Assembly: GCA_014803435.1 (NCBI GenBank)
Contig: JACYFD010000002.1
Coordinates: 62,001-126,000 of the forward strand
Direction of reading: 5' to 3'
Length of the DNA stretch: 64,000 bases
Origin: Cellulosimicrobium terreum
GTDB taxonomy: Bacteria; Actinomycetota; Actinomycetes; Actinomycetales; Cellulomonadaceae
In this document: positions 36,677 through 41,272 of the stretch, in pieces
Numbering within the stretch: the first letter of the stretch is position 1
Layout: each line of letters opens with the position of its first letter
Position numbers and translations under genes: made by a program
Notes under the pieces: generated by a model
What the model saw: the letters and a program-made list of their open reading frames with translations, nothing else
The model's database searches: none
What the model was told of the DNA's origin: nothing

Positions 36677-36743
36677 TACCCGGCGCGGGTAGTCGACCTC
36701 GCGAGGCACCCTCGCCGGGTGATCCGCGCGCCCGGTGCCTCGC
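36677..36743. promoter_or_regulatory. Inverted repeats between two divergent genes
   Basis: TACCCG/CGGGTA (36677-36682 and 36686-36691) surrounds three bases, and GCGAGGCACC (36701-36710) is mirrored exactly at 36734-36743 with a 23-base centre. On the minus strand TATAGG at 36678-36673 could be a -10 for the coiled-coil membrane protein. The region separates genes starting at 36602 (minus) and 36783 (plus). Confidence 0.4.
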
Positions 36744-36782
36744 GCATGCTGTCGTGACAGGGACGACGGGCGGGAGCGGAAC

Positions 36783-37694
36783 GTGCCGAGGACGACGACG
36801 GTCGAGCTGGTGGTGGTCGGTCCGGTGGGCGTGCCCGACGCCGAGCTCGACGAGCTCGGGGTGCGGCGGTCGACGTCGTGCACCCTCCTCCAGGCGTCCG
36901 TCCGCGACCAGGCGGCGCTCTACGGGCTGCTCCAGCGCCTCTCGTCCCTCGGTCTCGACCTGCTCGAGCTGCGCACCTCGGTGCCCGGGTCACGGGCCGA
37001 CGTCGAGGTCGTGGTCCGCGGGCCGGTCGGCCCCCTGGTCCAGCAGATGCTGCGCGACGTCGACCGGGCCGTCCCGAAGGTCGTGACGTCCTACCGCGTG
37101 CGCGACGTCGACCTCGCGACGCTGCTCGACGTCGTCGACGACGTCTCCTCACCCCTGGCGGGTGAGGACATGCGCGCCGAGGTCGGCGAGCGTGGTCCGG
37201 CAGGGACCCTCCTGGGCCCCGGGGATGTCGTGGTGGCGACTGGGGAGAGACCGATGGACCGCACGTTCGACGAGATGGGCCCGATCGACTACATCGTCCT
37301 GGAGTTCCCGCAGAACCGGCTCGACGGCGAGGCGTTGCCGCTGCTCATCGAGCTGGTCGACCGAGGGATCGTGCGGGTCCTCGACCTGGCGTTCGTCGAG
37401 AAGGACCTGGCGGGCGAGGTGCAGGGCATCGAGCTGCAGAACCTGGACGTCAGCGGGGACTTCGACGTCTCCGTGTTCGACGGCGTGTCCTCGGGTCTGC
37501 TCGGCGACGACGACCTCAAGCAGGCGGGGGCAGCCCTCGAGCCGGGCAGCGCCGCCGGGATCCTCGTGTACGAGAACGCGTGGGCGGGCCCCTTCGCGGC
37601 TGCCCTGCGCCGCGGCGGCGGGGCCATCGTCGACAGCGGTCGGATCCCCGTCCAGTCGATCATCGCCGCGCTGGACGCGGCCGAGAGCCGCTGA
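36783..37694 (+). CDS. DUF6325 protein with an extra N-terminal domain (copy 2)
   Basis: A single open frame of 303 residues. The last 146 residues match DUF6325 (GPIDYIVLEFP, VLDLAFVEKDLAGEVQGIE, AAGILVYENAWAGPF, GGAIVDSGRIPVQS) and align with the 11070 protein. The first 157 residues are different: STSCTLLQASVRDQAALYGLLQ resembles a short domain found alone in other actinobacteria, then DVEVVVRGPVGPL. The GTG at 36783 follows GGGAGCGGAAC. An ATG at 37254 with GGGGAGAG ahead would give a protein of normal family length, so the frame may hold a fusion, or two overlapping in-phase products. It pairs with the SHOCT gene 69 bases downstream. Confidence 0.75.
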   Translation: MPRTTTVELVVVGPVGVPDAELDELGVRRSTSCTLLQASVRDQAALYGLLQRLSSLGLDLLELRTSVPGSRADVEVVVRGPVGPLVQQMLRDVDRAVPKVVTSYRVRDVDLATLLDVVDDVSSPLAGEDMRAEVGERGPAGTLLGPGDVVVATGERPMDRTFDEMGPIDYIVLEFPQNRLDGEALPLLIELVDRGIVRVLDLAFVEKDLAGEVQGIELQNLDVSGDFDVSVFDGVSSGLLGDDDLKQAGAALEPGSAAGILVYENAWAGPFAAALRRGGGAIVDSGRIPVQSIIAALDAAESR

Positions 37695-37763: not shown

Positions 37764-38096
37764 ATGGGACTTCTTCGAGGTGTCGCCCGGACGGCCGTCG
37801 TCGCGGGGACCGCGAGCGCCGTCTCCGGCCGCGTCCAGCGCCGCCAGCAGGGCCGCTGGGCGGCGCAGGACGCCCAGAACGCGCAGGCGGCGTACGCCGA
37901 GCCGCAGTACGCCGCCCCGCCCCCGCAGTACGCGCCCCCGCCGCCGCAGTACGCGGCGCCGCCGCAGGCGGAGCCCGCCGCGGACGACATGGACGCGAAG
38001 ATCGCGCAGCTGCGCGAGCTCGCGGCGCTGCGCGACCAGGGCGTGATCACCGACGCCGAGCTCGCGACCCAGAAGGCCCGCATCCTCGGCTCCTGA
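37764..38096 (+). CDS. SHOCT domain protein (copy 2)
   Basis: A 110-residue protein whose N-terminus (RGVARTAVVAGTASAVSGRV) is like that of the SHOCT protein at 11592 (GTAARTAVIAGTASATAGAV). The middle has Tyr/Pro/Gln repeats (QYAPPPPQYAAPPQ), and the C-terminus is the SHOCT pair KIAQLRELAALRDQGVITD to ATQKARILGS. GAGGAG is upstream of the ATG. The order DUF6325 then SHOCT is the same as at 11 kb. Confidence 0.87.
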   Translation: MGLLRGVARTAVVAGTASAVSGRVQRRQQGRWAAQDAQNAQAAYAEPQYAAPPPQYAPPPPQYAAPPQAEPAADDMDAKIAQLRELAALRDQGVITDAELATQKARILGS

Positions 38097-38134: not shown

Positions 38135-38229
38135 GCTCGCGGACGCGCTCGTGGACGTGCTCGTGGACCGTGCGCCGGGGGCGGGGCGCGCTCCGCTAGG
38201 GTGTGCCCGGCCCGACGACGTCGGGCCGG
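38135..38229 (+). promoter_or_regulatory. Repeat and palindrome region upstream of speD
   Basis: Three tandem 12-mers (GCTCGCGGACGC, GCTCGTGGACGT, GCTCGTGGACCG) cover 38135-38170. TAGGGT at 38197-38202 could be a -10 element, and CCGGCCCGAC (38207-38216) is mirrored exactly at 38220-38229 around three bases. If transcription begins near 38208, the hairpin is the extreme 5' end of a leader of about 95 bases. Function as operator or leader structure is inference. Confidence 0.4.
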
Positions 38230-38301
38230 CCGTTCAGGTCGGTGCCGGGCTCGCGCCGGGCCCGTGCCGCCGGTCGCCGGGTCCGATCGCAGGGGAGCAC
38301 G

Positions 38302-38640
38302 GTGCAACGCAACCTCGTCCACGTCTTCGACGTGACGGGAGCCGACCCTCGCCTGCTCGACGACGACGCGACGGTGCGCGGCTGCCTGGACGCGATCGTG
38401 GCGGGCTCCGGGCTCACCCGGCTCGGTGAAGTGTCGCACCGCTTCGAGCCGCAGGGGACGAGCGTCGTCCTCCTCCTCGCGGAGTCGCACCTGGCCGTGC
38501 ACACGTGGCCCGAGCACGGCAGCGCCTACGTCACGCTGACGACGTGCCGCGTGCCGCCGGCGTCGTTCACCGACGACGTCCGCGAGCTGCTGCGGACCGC
38601 GCTGGGAGCGCGCGACGTCACCTTGCGGAGCCTGGTGTGA
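38302..38640 (+). CDS. speD: S-adenosylmethionine decarboxylase proenzyme
   Basis: A 112-residue class 1B (SpeH-like) decarboxylase. The self-cleavage site is Glu61-Ser62 in LLLAESHLAVHTWPEHG; Ser62 becomes the pyruvoyl group. The His and Cys that help processing are seen in HTWPE and VTLTTC. It makes decarboxylated S-adenosylmethionine, the aminopropyl donor for spermidine-type polyamines. The GTG follows AGGGGAG. It overlaps the DUF4178 gene by four bases and leads an operon that ends with an aminopropyltransferase, so the two enzymes supply one pathway. Confidence 0.92.
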   Translation: MQRNLVHVFDVTGADPRLLDDDATVRGCLDAIVAGSGLTRLGEVSHRFEPQGTSVVLLLAESHLAVHTWPEHGSAYVTLTTCRVPPASFTDDVRELLRTALGARDVTLRSLV

Positions 38641-39389
38641 GCGCGCACGCCGCACGCCTGGCGATGCGGGTCGACGAGGAGCTCGTCGGGACCGGGCACC
38701 CGCCGGCCCGCACGACCCCGCGCGCCGTCGCGGTCCTGGGCACCCCCGACGGGTCGACGTGGGAGGAGTGGCAGCTCCGCGGCCAGGACGGCTCCGACCT
38801 GTGGATCGAGCACGACCACGACACCAGCCAGGTCACGCTGTACGAGCCGGTCGAGACCACGCCGCCCGTCGTCGACATGGACGGTCTCGTCCCCGGCTCC
38901 CGGCTCACCCTCGGGTTCGACGGGCAGACCCACGAGCTCGCGGTGCGCGAGCGGGGCACCGGCCGGATCCTGTCCGTCGTCGGGTCGTTCGCGGAGCCGT
39001 TCGCTGTGGGGCAGGTCGTCGAGTACGCCGACCTCGCCGGACGCGGCGTGCTGGTCTCCGTCGAGCGGACCGTCGGGCGGCTCGGCCCGACGACGAGCAT
39101 CTACCGCGGCCGGCGGCTGGACGCCGCGGAGCAGAAGCGGGTCTTCGGCCGTCGGCTCGCCCCGGCGCGCGGGAGCGCCCGCCGCATCAGCCTGTGGGCC
39201 GTGGTCGTCGCCCTGGTCGTCGGGGTGTTCGCGTCGTGCCAGGCGCGGTCGGAGGGCTCCGGCGCGGCGTGCACGCCGCGCACCGTCGTGACATCCGCTC
39301 CGGACGGGACCCCGACCACCACGTCCGACGGGACCACCTGCTACCGCCGCTCCGTGTACGGCGGCGGGGGCGGTGGCCTGGGCAAGTGA
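38637..39389 (+). CDS. DUF4178 domain membrane-anchored protein
   Basis: A 250-residue protein with the DUF4178 pattern: a beta-rich domain (WEEWQLRGQDGSDLWIEHD, SQVTLYEPVE, then GSRLTLGFDGQTHELAVRE, FAVGQVVEYADLAGRGVL) and one helix near residues 188-205 (ISLWAVVVALVVGVFASC) followed by a short Ser/Thr/Gly-rich tail ending in a glycine run. Its N-terminal domain should be cytoplasmic. The GTG start overlaps the speD stop (GTGA), so translation is coupled. Function is unknown; gene order links it to polyamine chemistry at the membrane. Confidence 0.85.
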   Translation: MSAHAARLAMRVDEELVGTGHPPARTTPRAVAVLGTPDGSTWEEWQLRGQDGSDLWIEHDHDTSQVTLYEPVETTPPVVDMDGLVPGSRLTLGFDGQTHELAVRERGTGRILSVVGSFAEPFAVGQVVEYADLAGRGVLVSVERTVGRLGPTTSIYRGRRLDAAEQKRVFGRRLAPARGSARRISLWAVVVALVVGVFASCQARSEGSGAACTPRTVVTSAPDGTPTTTSDGTTCYRRSVYGGGGGGLGK

Positions 39390-39432
39390 CCGCCACGTGT
39401 CCGACCCCTTCACCCTCTCCTAGGAGCCGACC

Positions 39433-39657
39433 ATGAACGCCGCTGTCCTCCTGCCCGTCTGGGCCTTCTTCTCGACGATCCTGTACTCGGTGCTCGGCAT
39501 CGTCCTGCTGCTGCTGACGCTCGTCGTGGCGAACAAGATGTTCAAGCTCAACCTGTACCGCGAGCTCGTCGACGAGCACAACACCGCGTTCGGCATCATG
39601 ATCGCGGGCCTCGCGATCGCGATCGGCCTGATCATCGCGGGGACGATCCAGTCCTGA
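39433..39657 (+). CDS. DUF350 (YjfL-like) membrane protein
   Basis: A 74-residue protein with two helices: FFSTILYSVLGIVLLLLTLV and a C-terminal AFGIMIAGLAIAIGLIIAG, joined by KMFKLNLYRELVDEHN. This matches one DUF350 unit; many homologues carry two or more. E. coli YjfL of this family lies in the yjfIJKLMC cluster together with a PspA relative and a glutathionylspermidine-synthetase-like protein. TAGGAG precedes the ATG. The speE start follows one base after its stop. Confidence 0.87.
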   Translation: MNAAVLLPVWAFFSTILYSVLGIVLLLLTLVVANKMFKLNLYRELVDEHNTAFGIMIAGLAIAIGLIIAGTIQS

Positions 39658-39658
39658 G

Positions 39659-41272
39659 ATGGTCGACCAGCAGGTGACCGTCGCGCCGGGGGCGCGCGTG
39701 ACCGACGACGACGTGCCGACCGCCGGCCGGACGCGGGGCATGGACCGCCCGACGGTGTTCGCGGCGGCCCTGCTCGTCGCCGTCGGGGGCCTCGTCTACG
39801 AGCTGATCCTCGGGACGGCGGCGTCGTACCTGTTCGGCGACTCGATCGTCGCGTTCTCCGTCGCGACCGGCCTGACGCTGTTCGGCATGGGCCTCGGCTC
39901 GCTGCTCGCGCCGCGCCTGGAGCGGGGGGCGGCGCTGAACTTCGTCCGCAACGAGCTGGTGCTGAGCCTGGTCGGCGGCACGTCGGTGCTGGTCCTGTTC
40001 TGGGCGTACGCCCAGACCGAGGTCTACTGGACGGTCTTCGTCCTGCTCTCCCTCCTGATCGGGACGGCGATCGGCGTGGAGATCCCCCTGCTCGTCGCGC
40101 TGATCAAGGAGCGCGGCGACGACGGGTCCGTGTCGGTGCTCTCGAAGGTGCTCGCGCTCGACTACTTCGGCGCGCTCGTCGCGTCGCTGCTCTTCCCGTT
40201 CCTGCTGCTCCCGACGCTCGGGCTCGTGCGCACAGCCTTCGCCGTCGCCGTGCTGAACGTCGGGGTCGCGCTGTTCATGCTGGCCCGGATGGGGCACCCG
40301 GCCCGGTGGACGGTGCTCACCTGGATGGCGCTCGCGGTGCTCGTCGTGGGCTTCGCGGCGTCGACGTGGCTCGAGACGTCCATCAGCGCGCGGATGTACC
40401 AGGACCCGGTCGTCGCGCAGGAGCAGAGCCGGTACCAGAAGATCGTCGTCACCGAGTACCAGGGCGACACGCGGCTGTACCTGAGCGACCAGCTCCAGTT
40501 CTCCTCCGTCGACGAGGCCCGGTACCACGAGACCCTCGCGCACGCGACGATGACGTCGGTGGCGGCCCCGGCGTCGGTCGCGATCCTCGGTGGCGGCGAC
40601 GGTCTCCTCGCGCGCGAGGTGCTCCGCTACGACTCCGTCCAGGACGTCACGCTCGTCGACCTCGACCCGGCGGTGACGGACCTCGCGCGCGACAACCGGT
40701 TGATCGCCGACCTCAACGAGCACGCGCTCGACGACGACCGCGTCGACGTCGTCAACGCCGACGCCTTCCGCTGGCTCGACGAGACGGACCAGACGTTCGA
40801 CGTCGTCCTCGTCGACCTCGTCGACCCGTCCACCGACCGTATCGCCAAGCTGTACTCGCAGGAGTTCTACGGGATGGTCGCCGCGCACCTGCGGCCGGGC
40901 GGTGCGTTCGCGACCCAGGCGACGTCGTCGTACTTCACGCCGAACGCGTTCTGGCAGGTCGTGGCGACCGCCGAGGCGGCCGGCCCGGACCGGACCGTCG
41001 TGCCGCTCAGCGTGAACGTCCCGTCGTTCGGCGAGTGGGGCTTCGTCCTGTCCCTGCCCGGTGCACCCCGCGGTGGCGTGCCCGACGCCGCTGCCGGGCT
41101 CTTCGCGCGCACGCCCCTCCCGTCCGGGCTGAGGTTCCACGACGCGACCTCGCTCGCCGCGACCACGCGCCTGCCGGCGGACAACCCGCGCCGCGACATG
41201 GCGCCGTCGACCCTGCTGTCCCCGGTCGTCCAGCGCACGTACCAGCAGGACATGCAGAGCTGGCGCTACTGA
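39659..41272 (+). CDS. speE: Membrane-anchored polyamine aminopropyltransferase
   Basis: A 537-residue protein, much longer than soluble spermidine synthase (about 290). The first 230 residues hold six to seven helices (AALLVAVGGLVYELILGTAA, GLTLFGMGLGSLLAP). The C-terminal catalytic domain begins near residue 255 (YQKIVVTEY, LYLSDQLQFSSVDEARYHE) and has ILGGGDGLLAREVL (Gly311 onwards), VTLVDLDPAVTDLA and VVLVDLVDPSTDR for binding decarboxylated S-adenosylmethionine and the acceptor amine. It moves an aminopropyl group; the acceptor could be putrescine or a membrane component. It closes the speD operon. Confidence 0.92.
   Translation: MVDQQVTVAPGARVTDDDVPTAGRTRGMDRPTVFAAALLVAVGGLVYELILGTAASYLFGDSIVAFSVATGLTLFGMGLGSLLAPRLERGAALNFVRNELVLSLVGGTSVLVLFWAYAQTEVYWTVFVLLSLLIGTAIGVEIPLLVALIKERGDDGSVSVLSKVLALDYFGALVASLLFPFLLLPTLGLVRTAFAVAVLNVGVALFMLARMGHPARWTVLTWMALAVLVVGFAASTWLETSISARMYQDPVVAQEQSRYQKIVVTEYQGDTRLYLSDQLQFSSVDEARYHETLAHATMTSVAAPASVAILGGGDGLLAREVLRYDSVQDVTLVDLDPAVTDLARDNRLIADLNEHALDDDRVDVVNADAFRWLDETDQTFDVVLVDLVDPSTDRIAKLYSQEFYGMVAAHLRPGGAFATQATSSYFTPNAFWQVVATAEAAGPDRTVVPLSVNVPSFGEWGFVLSLPGAPRGGVPDAAAGLFARTPLPSGLRFHDATSLAATTRLPADNPRRDMAPSTLLSPVVQRTYQQDMQSWRY

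Follow-up and report, generated by a model that had tools for sequence, protein, structure and literature searches.

Introduction

The aminopropyl acceptor of the widespread membrane-bound SpeE enzymes has been an open question since at least 2019. In that year, Li and colleagues reportedly described functional S-adenosylmethionine decarboxylases (AdoMetDCs) beside a membrane-SpeE fusion without spermidine, with DUF350 as a further neighbor, and are said to have argued for an acceptor other than putrescine. That a polyamine part can be moved to the side chain of a protein lysine is known from deoxyhypusine on eIF5A, where the aminobutyl group of spermidine is placed on an internal lysine in the cytoplasm. 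Here we analyze a stretch of 64,000 nucleotides from Cellulosimicrobium terreum (contig JACYFD010000002.1, positions 62,001 to 126,000; hereinafter the window), in which speD, a DUF4178 gene, a DUF350 gene and speE form one unit. The association of SpeD, membrane SpeE and DUF350 is reportedly that of Li and colleagues, whose account is said to name no acceptor; we tentatively propose one, namely the last lysine of a glycine-rich tail on the DUF4178 protein. Like deoxyhypusine, the product would be a loaded protein lysine, with the enzyme of the former being unrelated.

Operons of this type have been published. The accessible passages of Ravi 2024 (PMC11237479) describe a 7TM-fused spermine/spermidine synthase with DUF350, a lipoprotein and DUF4178, together with variants containing DUF4247 and DUF2617, or band-7, AdoMet decarboxylase and polyamine oxidase. 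As functions, the authors suggest the sensing of polyamines or an aminopropyl transfer to other substrates, with reference to Li et al. 2019. Hence, the view of an earlier reading of the window (the original prediction) that this might be an undescribed system does not hold. The phage shock protein (PSP)-linked operon in those passages shares membrane SpeE, DUF350 and DUF4178 with the window. However, PspA, CesT/Tir, band-7, DUF4247, DUF2617 and oxidase were not found among the window neighbors scanned, and neither gene of the CesT/Tir-PspA pair occurs among six neighboring proteins searched with Pfam. The same passages make no mention of a terminal-lysine tail, an outside catalytic domain or an exclusion between SpeD and DUF2617; a specific candidate acceptor, its predicted membrane side and this exclusion are what we add to the published operon. 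Our literature search by title, abstract or open passages, which left most subscription papers beyond reach, found no description of the lysine-ended tail; its recurrence, the predicted half-transporter architecture of SpeE with an outside catalytic domain and the SpeD/DUF2617 pattern look new.

A parallel is offered by YgiBC and YjfLMC of Escherichia coli, where a glycine-rich tail protein adjoins an enzyme joining a polyamine to a peptide, as we propose for the window, and DUF350 adjoins YjfM. Whereas YgiC and YjfC are ATP-grasp ligases (RefSeq: peptide--spermidine ligase; see the accessible part of Pederick 2023), the window enzyme is an aminopropyltransferase; and whereas the DUF1190 proteins YgiB and YjfM end in ..SMGG and ..HWGG, the window-type tails end in -GK. 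By analogy, a free glycine carboxylate may suit the ligase partner and a lysine end the aminopropyltransferase partner. Kinship between the two kinds of tail was rejected, as no DUF1190 match was obtained for the carriers in two related loci (L162, L164); the comparison extends to the logic alone.

The four-gene unit and its proposed action

The features of the unit are as follows:

38302..38640, + strand: speD, class 1b AdoMetDC proenzyme, 112 aa (PF02675 82.3 bits, cut-off 25; relatives PDB 2iii, 1tlu, 1vr7)
38637..39389, + strand: DUF4178 protein, 250 aa, with an inside domain, one membrane helix and an outside tail, sides predicted (PF13785 29.6 bits, cut-off 25)
39246..39386, + strand: candidate acceptor, the tail of the DUF4178 protein (residues 204-250, predicted to lie outside), with the end VYGGGGGGLGK (terminal-lysine conservation, tail scans)
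39433..39657, + strand: short-form DUF350 membrane protein of 74 aa with two helices (PF03994 40.6 bits, cut-off 26; two hydrophobic segments)
39659..41272, + strand: speE, membrane-bound polyamine aminopropyltransferase, 537 aa (PF01564 123.2 bits, cut-off 22.9; NCBIfam PRK03612 (NF002956) 552.7 bits, cut-off 472)
39746..40372, + strand: SpeE membrane part, residues 30-238, modeled as a bundle like half of a major facilitator superfamily (MFS) transporter plus a seventh helix
40415..41068, + strand: SpeE catalytic aminopropyltransferase domain, residues 253-470 (PF01564; PDB 7xif and 3anx alignments; residues conserved over 76 rows)

The spacings, -4 bases between speD and the DUF4178 gene, 43 between the latter and the DUF350 gene and 1 between that and speE, are exactly those given earlier, and the coordinates and order were borne out by open reading frame (ORF) positions and Pfam/NCBIfam matches; the description of the enzymes as fused was mistaken, these being four separate genes. 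The same four genes occur in all 19 of the loci L049-L067, and therefore the arrangement is not due to chance. These loci come from Cellulosimicrobium, Oerskovia, Cellulomonas, Sediminihabitans, Desertihabitans, Auraticoccus and one record named Sphaerisporangium; in a metagenome-assembled genome among them (L060) SpeE is split over two frames. In four other actinobacterial loci fetched with them (L083, L088, L090, L091), SpeD was not found within the locus. SpeE of nine genomes from the same genus is 82-86% identical to that of the window, and at least one further genome (G203) is without SpeE.

We confine the unit to four genes because a convergent luciferase-like gene ends 12 bases past SpeE and the upstream pair is not kept beside the operon. 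That pair, a DUF6325 protein (36735-37694, +) and a small SHOCT protein (37764-38096, +), lies directly upstream of speD and is probably outside the operon: membership was rejected, as among L049-L067 both are present only in L054, some 3-4 kb from speD. Scattering of the homologs, a possibility raised with the original prediction, is not what we see: of the 48 membrane SpeE matches in our sample of the class, 32 have DUF350 and 29 have DUF4178 at a distance of up to 6 kb.

Briefly, we advance the following mechanism. SpeD would supply decarboxylated S-adenosylmethionine (dcSAM), a donor with two charges, within the cytoplasm. The MFS-half part of SpeE, possibly helped by DUF350, would take it across to a catalytic domain facing outward, and this domain would load the aminopropyl group onto the amine at the end of the tail's C-terminal lysine side chain, yielding a terminal N6-(3-aminopropyl)lysine. 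The acceptor here would be the glycine-rich tail of the DUF4178 membrane protein, and the likely purpose envelope upkeep or stress sensing. The lysine side chain presents the aminobutyl group of putrescine, and therefore the old acceptor pocket could serve with ordinary chemistry kept. Gene order, families, catalytic residues and the recurring tail are read from the sequences, and topology and fold are predictions. We infer the passage of the donor, the acceptor and the purpose, and hold the core of this proposal, that SpeE uses SpeD-made dcSAM to aminopropylate the last lysine outside the membrane, to be a real possibility falling just short of evenly balanced. Extended to the family at large, with the half-transporter chimera exporting dcSAM and modifying the lysine of -GK or -HK tails, and with the donor coming from SpeD or, in most actinobacteria with the enzyme and perhaps in haloarchaea, from the DUF2617 protein, it would amount to a new post-translational modification outside the bacterial membrane, and becomes doubtful.

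The original prediction had dcSAM handed from SpeD to SpeE for use on a membrane-linked acceptor, perhaps a lipid or lipoprotein. Both enzymes keep their catalytic residues; what does not fit is the cytoplasmic side that a simple hand-over implies, as the enzyme is predicted to act outside. A membrane-linked acceptor is plausible, the operon itself encoding a concrete candidate; for a lipid no evidence was found. If the proposal is true, cells would use polyamine chemistry to tag the C-terminal ends of envelope proteins, something the peptide--spermidine ligases of E. coli may achieve in a different way, and DUF2617, DUF4178, DUF4247 and DUF350 would share a role. It names a specific acceptor, site and membrane side.

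A lysine-ended tail recurs beside membrane SpeE

The DUF4178 protein exceeds its family cut-off in the protein scan; the six-frame genome search did not report DUF4178. It has a single hydrophobic segment (residues 179-205) with positive residues at the segment start, and the tail beyond carries two cysteines and the glycine-rich end CYRRSVYGGGGGGLGK (ends YGGGGGGLGK). The first reading had the family and the overlap right and missed both this C-terminal helix and the tail. Among its distinct actinobacterial relatives the terminal lysine is present in 33/33, as is the glycine before it, and all nine Neisseriaceae DUF4178 proteins end in ..WHK. Other carriers show a similar end. The DUF4247 protein of the DUF2617 variant has a terminal lysine in 25/25 rows (repeats included), 17 of them with -GK (e.g., ..GGGSGFGK), 7 with -TK and 1 with -AK; in deltaproteobacteria and acidobacteria, DUF4178 and DUF350 are accompanied by a protein of 65-80 aa whose start resembles a signal sequence and whose end is ..GGGLRGGK or similar.

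These ends were scanned with a strict rule (lysine end, at least 3 glycines in the last 10 residues, upstream position), applied to ORFs from 35 aa with background ORFs from 60 aa. It was satisfied in 77/90 loci (the window and some contigs present more than once are among the 90, and the match in L069 is not its tail), as against 0/450 window ORFs outside the operon and 3/2451 flank ORFs, two of the latter being operon tails themselves. The 13 misses comprise five loci with the tail beyond the distance filter (L043, L046, L063, L065, L067), three ending in HK with few glycines (L079, L080, L086) and five with no such tail (L081, L085, L088, L090, L091).

After the tail had been seen, 16 further loci were fetched: 8 plasmid loci (from 8/13 matching records) and 8 genome loci, the latter being a second Jannaschia copy and the seven top-scoring matches, Snodgrassella itself apart, from a search of 369 genomes of Snodgrassella's class. 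Under a looser rule devised after inspecting them (lysine end plus a hydrophobic segment), 16/16 have such a protein, with 15 ending in GK or HK, among them a 48-aa Novosphingobium peptide ending ..TGPSHK. A fixed rule (hydrophobic segment plus GK or HK end) was then applied to 60 loci, namely 43 earlier, the 16 later and the window. It found a match in 50/60, or 51/639 hydrophobic ORFs near SpeE versus 0/195 farther away (Fisher value 1.3e-6, only a guide because the rows are related); one of the 51 (L160) is not the tail, and in the missed loci L068, L071, L084 and L158 the tail is there with weaker hydrophobicity. Used unchanged on 13 fresh loci whose membrane SpeE is of a type less closely related (278-316 bits), it found the tail in 8/13 (L165-L167, L169, L170, L174-L176), on proteins of 310-377 aa that a recognized DUF350 adjoins in six; two other ORFs were also picked (L170, L175). 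The ends there are ..SSRGGK, ..FGGGGK, ..FRGK, ..RRGK, ..RSGK, ..KRGK and ..KSGK. In most of the related operons, then, one gene product is an anchored or exported protein whose last residues are -GK or -HK, and the carrier of this end differs. The later checks favor recurrence of the tail and have no bearing on the activity of the enzyme.

Tail proteins of the distant type (L165-L177, from Snodgrassella's class) are rich in serine, glycine and arginine; SpeD adjoins SpeE in L173 and L174 and lies two genes away in L165.

As in Braun's lipoprotein, a terminal lysine can be a peptidoglycan anchor, and the tails do look exported or anchored, flexible and lysine-ended, so that they might merely tether their carriers while SpeE acts on something else. 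We regard this as distinctly improbable: the tail tracks membrane SpeE in the fixed-rule comparison of near and far ORFs, and no L,D-transpeptidase occurs among the six neighboring window proteins scanned, though such enzymes are often encoded elsewhere.

SpeE: a predicted half-transporter with an aminopropyltransferase domain

By its curated family matches, SpeE belongs to the membrane-bound polyamine aminopropyltransferases, and at E<=0.001 the genome holds one match to it, SpeE itself. The aminopropyltransferase active-site positions Q, Y, H, D, D, D and D..D are conserved in 71-76 of 76 rows and in the PDB alignments. A clade of five loci (L025, L027-L030) has threonine for histidine at position 290, a diverged DUF2617 and tails mostly ending ..GGTK. 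In the Streptomyces loci L088, L090 and L091, DUF2617-SpeE pairs differ at SpeE Q280, D386 and P455, perhaps reflecting another acceptor; DUF350, DUF4178 and the tail were not found beside these pairs.

The mean profile over the 76 rows shows seven hydrophobic segments in the membrane part, in line with the six to seven N-terminal helices first suggested. This part models as half an MFS transporter, with the six-helix bundle of that fold, plus a seventh helix. Among its best structural neighbors are choline and amine transporters, and this, along with the membrane placement and conserved membrane acids that suit a cationic or lipid substrate, would favor SpeE aminopropylating a small molecule or a membrane lipid, the tail protein only docking or sensing it; the accessible part of Ravi 2024 (PMC11237479) likewise leaves "other substrates" possible. 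We consider this unlikely, as the four-gene unit is without a lipid enzyme, and the lysine end persists on a variety of carriers, even on peptides of 48 aa, which docking alone would not require. The DUF350 partner matches only positions 5-66 of the 133 in PF03994, a half-length form.

The charges of the seven loops before the seventh segment alternate, and this segment equals the others in hydrophobicity (mean peak 2.32), which suggests that the catalytic domain lies outside the membrane, beside the tail; 48/76 catalytic domains are without any cysteine. The same two features speak against the tail being aminopropylated on the cytoplasmic side before export, with the seventh helix not crossing the membrane. 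That dcSAM is made inside would favor this course, as would the stretch after the seventh helix, not poor in lysine and arginine, and the cysteines of some catalytic domains; on balance it appears quite improbable.

Several observations weigh against the outer-face proposal. The roughly 25 residues after the seventh helix are not clearly of outside character (mean K+R 2.49, D+E 3.70), and some catalytic domains contain four (L073, L074) or three (L068, L071, L089) cysteines. An outside catalytic domain requires dcSAM outside, for which we know of no precedent. Catalytic residues are changed in some enzymes (H290T in L025 and L027-L030; Q280R in L088, L090 and L091), and SpeD is present in only 6/45 class genomes with membrane SpeE, the donor of the rest being unexplained. 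On the side of the tail, eight DUF4247 rows end in -TK or -AK instead of -GK; the strict rule recovered the operon tail in only 6/16 of the later loci, plus two unrelated matches, and its looser successor was post hoc. Finally, neither the strict nor the looser rule found a GK/HK tail in L081 (at a contig edge), the Streptomyces loci L088, L090 and L091, or L085 and L152 (ending RVK at best), and the fixed rule found none in L168, L171, L172, L173 and L177, with L168, L171 and L173 being cut by contig ends.

The proposed donor: SpeD and DUF2617

SpeD retains the catalytic residues of an AdoMetDC, as read from its alignment: S62, H67, P70 and C82 are kept in 37/37 distinct rows, and S62, H67 and C82 are the self-processing Ser, His and Cys of class 1b enzymes. 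The corresponding test residues in Thermotoga maritima are S63, H68 and C83, and a conserved proline distinguishes AdoMetDC from arginine decarboxylase (ADC), according to the accessible part of PMC10407285; P70 of the HTWPE motif, a candidate for that proline, is present in all 37 rows. SpeD passes the Pfam cut-off and falls under that of the NCBIfam equivalog TIGR03330 (69.1 vs 75.65 bits).

Most relatives in the class carry DUF2617 beside SpeE. A class survey of 197 genomes gave 48 membrane-SpeE matches of at least 190 bits in 45 genomes, with at most 7 SpeE candidates scored per genome and G157 (97.6 bits) excluded. For 44/48 matches, in 41/45 genomes, there is a DUF2617 gene no more than 6 kb away, and all 44 DUF2617 sites entered are near a SpeE. 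The four SpeE without an adjoining DUF2617 (window, G031, G078, G107) belong to genomes that all have SpeD, none lacking both: by genome, SpeD is present in 4/4 without DUF2617 and 2/41 with it (Fisher 1e-4, kinship not corrected). SpeD adjoins SpeE in the window only, among the 48 matches. In 14 control genomes, SpeD occurs in 8 and DUF2617 in two others (C. glutamicum, H. volcanii).

DUF2617 is hence a candidate stand-in for SpeD, and the exclusion gives the family a testable function; no AdoMetDC likeness is visible in fold or profile comparison. At its active-site positions, SpeE of the SpeD-linked rows resembles that of most DUF2617-linked rows, consistent with a shared donor. Our tree was made quickly and has long branches; L015 and L018 are tagged in it as having neither partner only through short flanks.

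Putrescine and ordinary spermidine synthesis

The unit might simply make spermidine from putrescine by SpeD and SpeE, with DUF4178 and DUF350 as passengers: the active-site residues of both enzymes are kept, and PRK03612 is named for polyamine aminopropyltransferases. The genome argues otherwise. Pfam searches of it gave no match to PF01276 or PF00491, agmatine deiminase lying outside these searches, and two to PF02784: one is LysA, with 421 bits against a cut-off of 297.9, and the other a LysA/PEP1-like protein that reaches neither cut-off. The original suggestion that putrescine need not be the acceptor is in keeping with these three Pfam searches, in which the genome yielded no canonical enzyme of putrescine formation. 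Li and colleagues reportedly saw no complementation of a speE deletion, which we also count against spermidine synthesis; overall, we consider it very unlikely. The LysA/PEP1-like protein, a pyridoxal-phosphate-type decarboxylase near TIGR03099/lysA (G000:C7:6697-7437, L113), lies about 55 kb before the window, adjoined by an ATP-grasp-looking ORF. SpeD itself might be a hidden ornithine decarboxylase, and so a putrescine source, although its catalytic region resembles that of AdoMetDC. A hidden putrescine source is unlikely.

Other genes of the neighborhoods

In three proteobacterial loci (L072, L149 and, by eye, L151), a band-7 or SPFH protein and an FAD amine oxidase or oxidoreductase stand beside SpeE, and the oxidase could convert an aminopropyl-lysine into an aldehyde. 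Some 3-4 kb downstream of the window operon, a VTT-domain gene (PF09335; 44546-45283, +) is followed by a gene for a protein with the C-terminal domain of phosphatidylglycerol lysyltransferases (PF09924; 45299-46987, +). This places another envelope-charge system nearby, whose linkage to the operon is conjecture.

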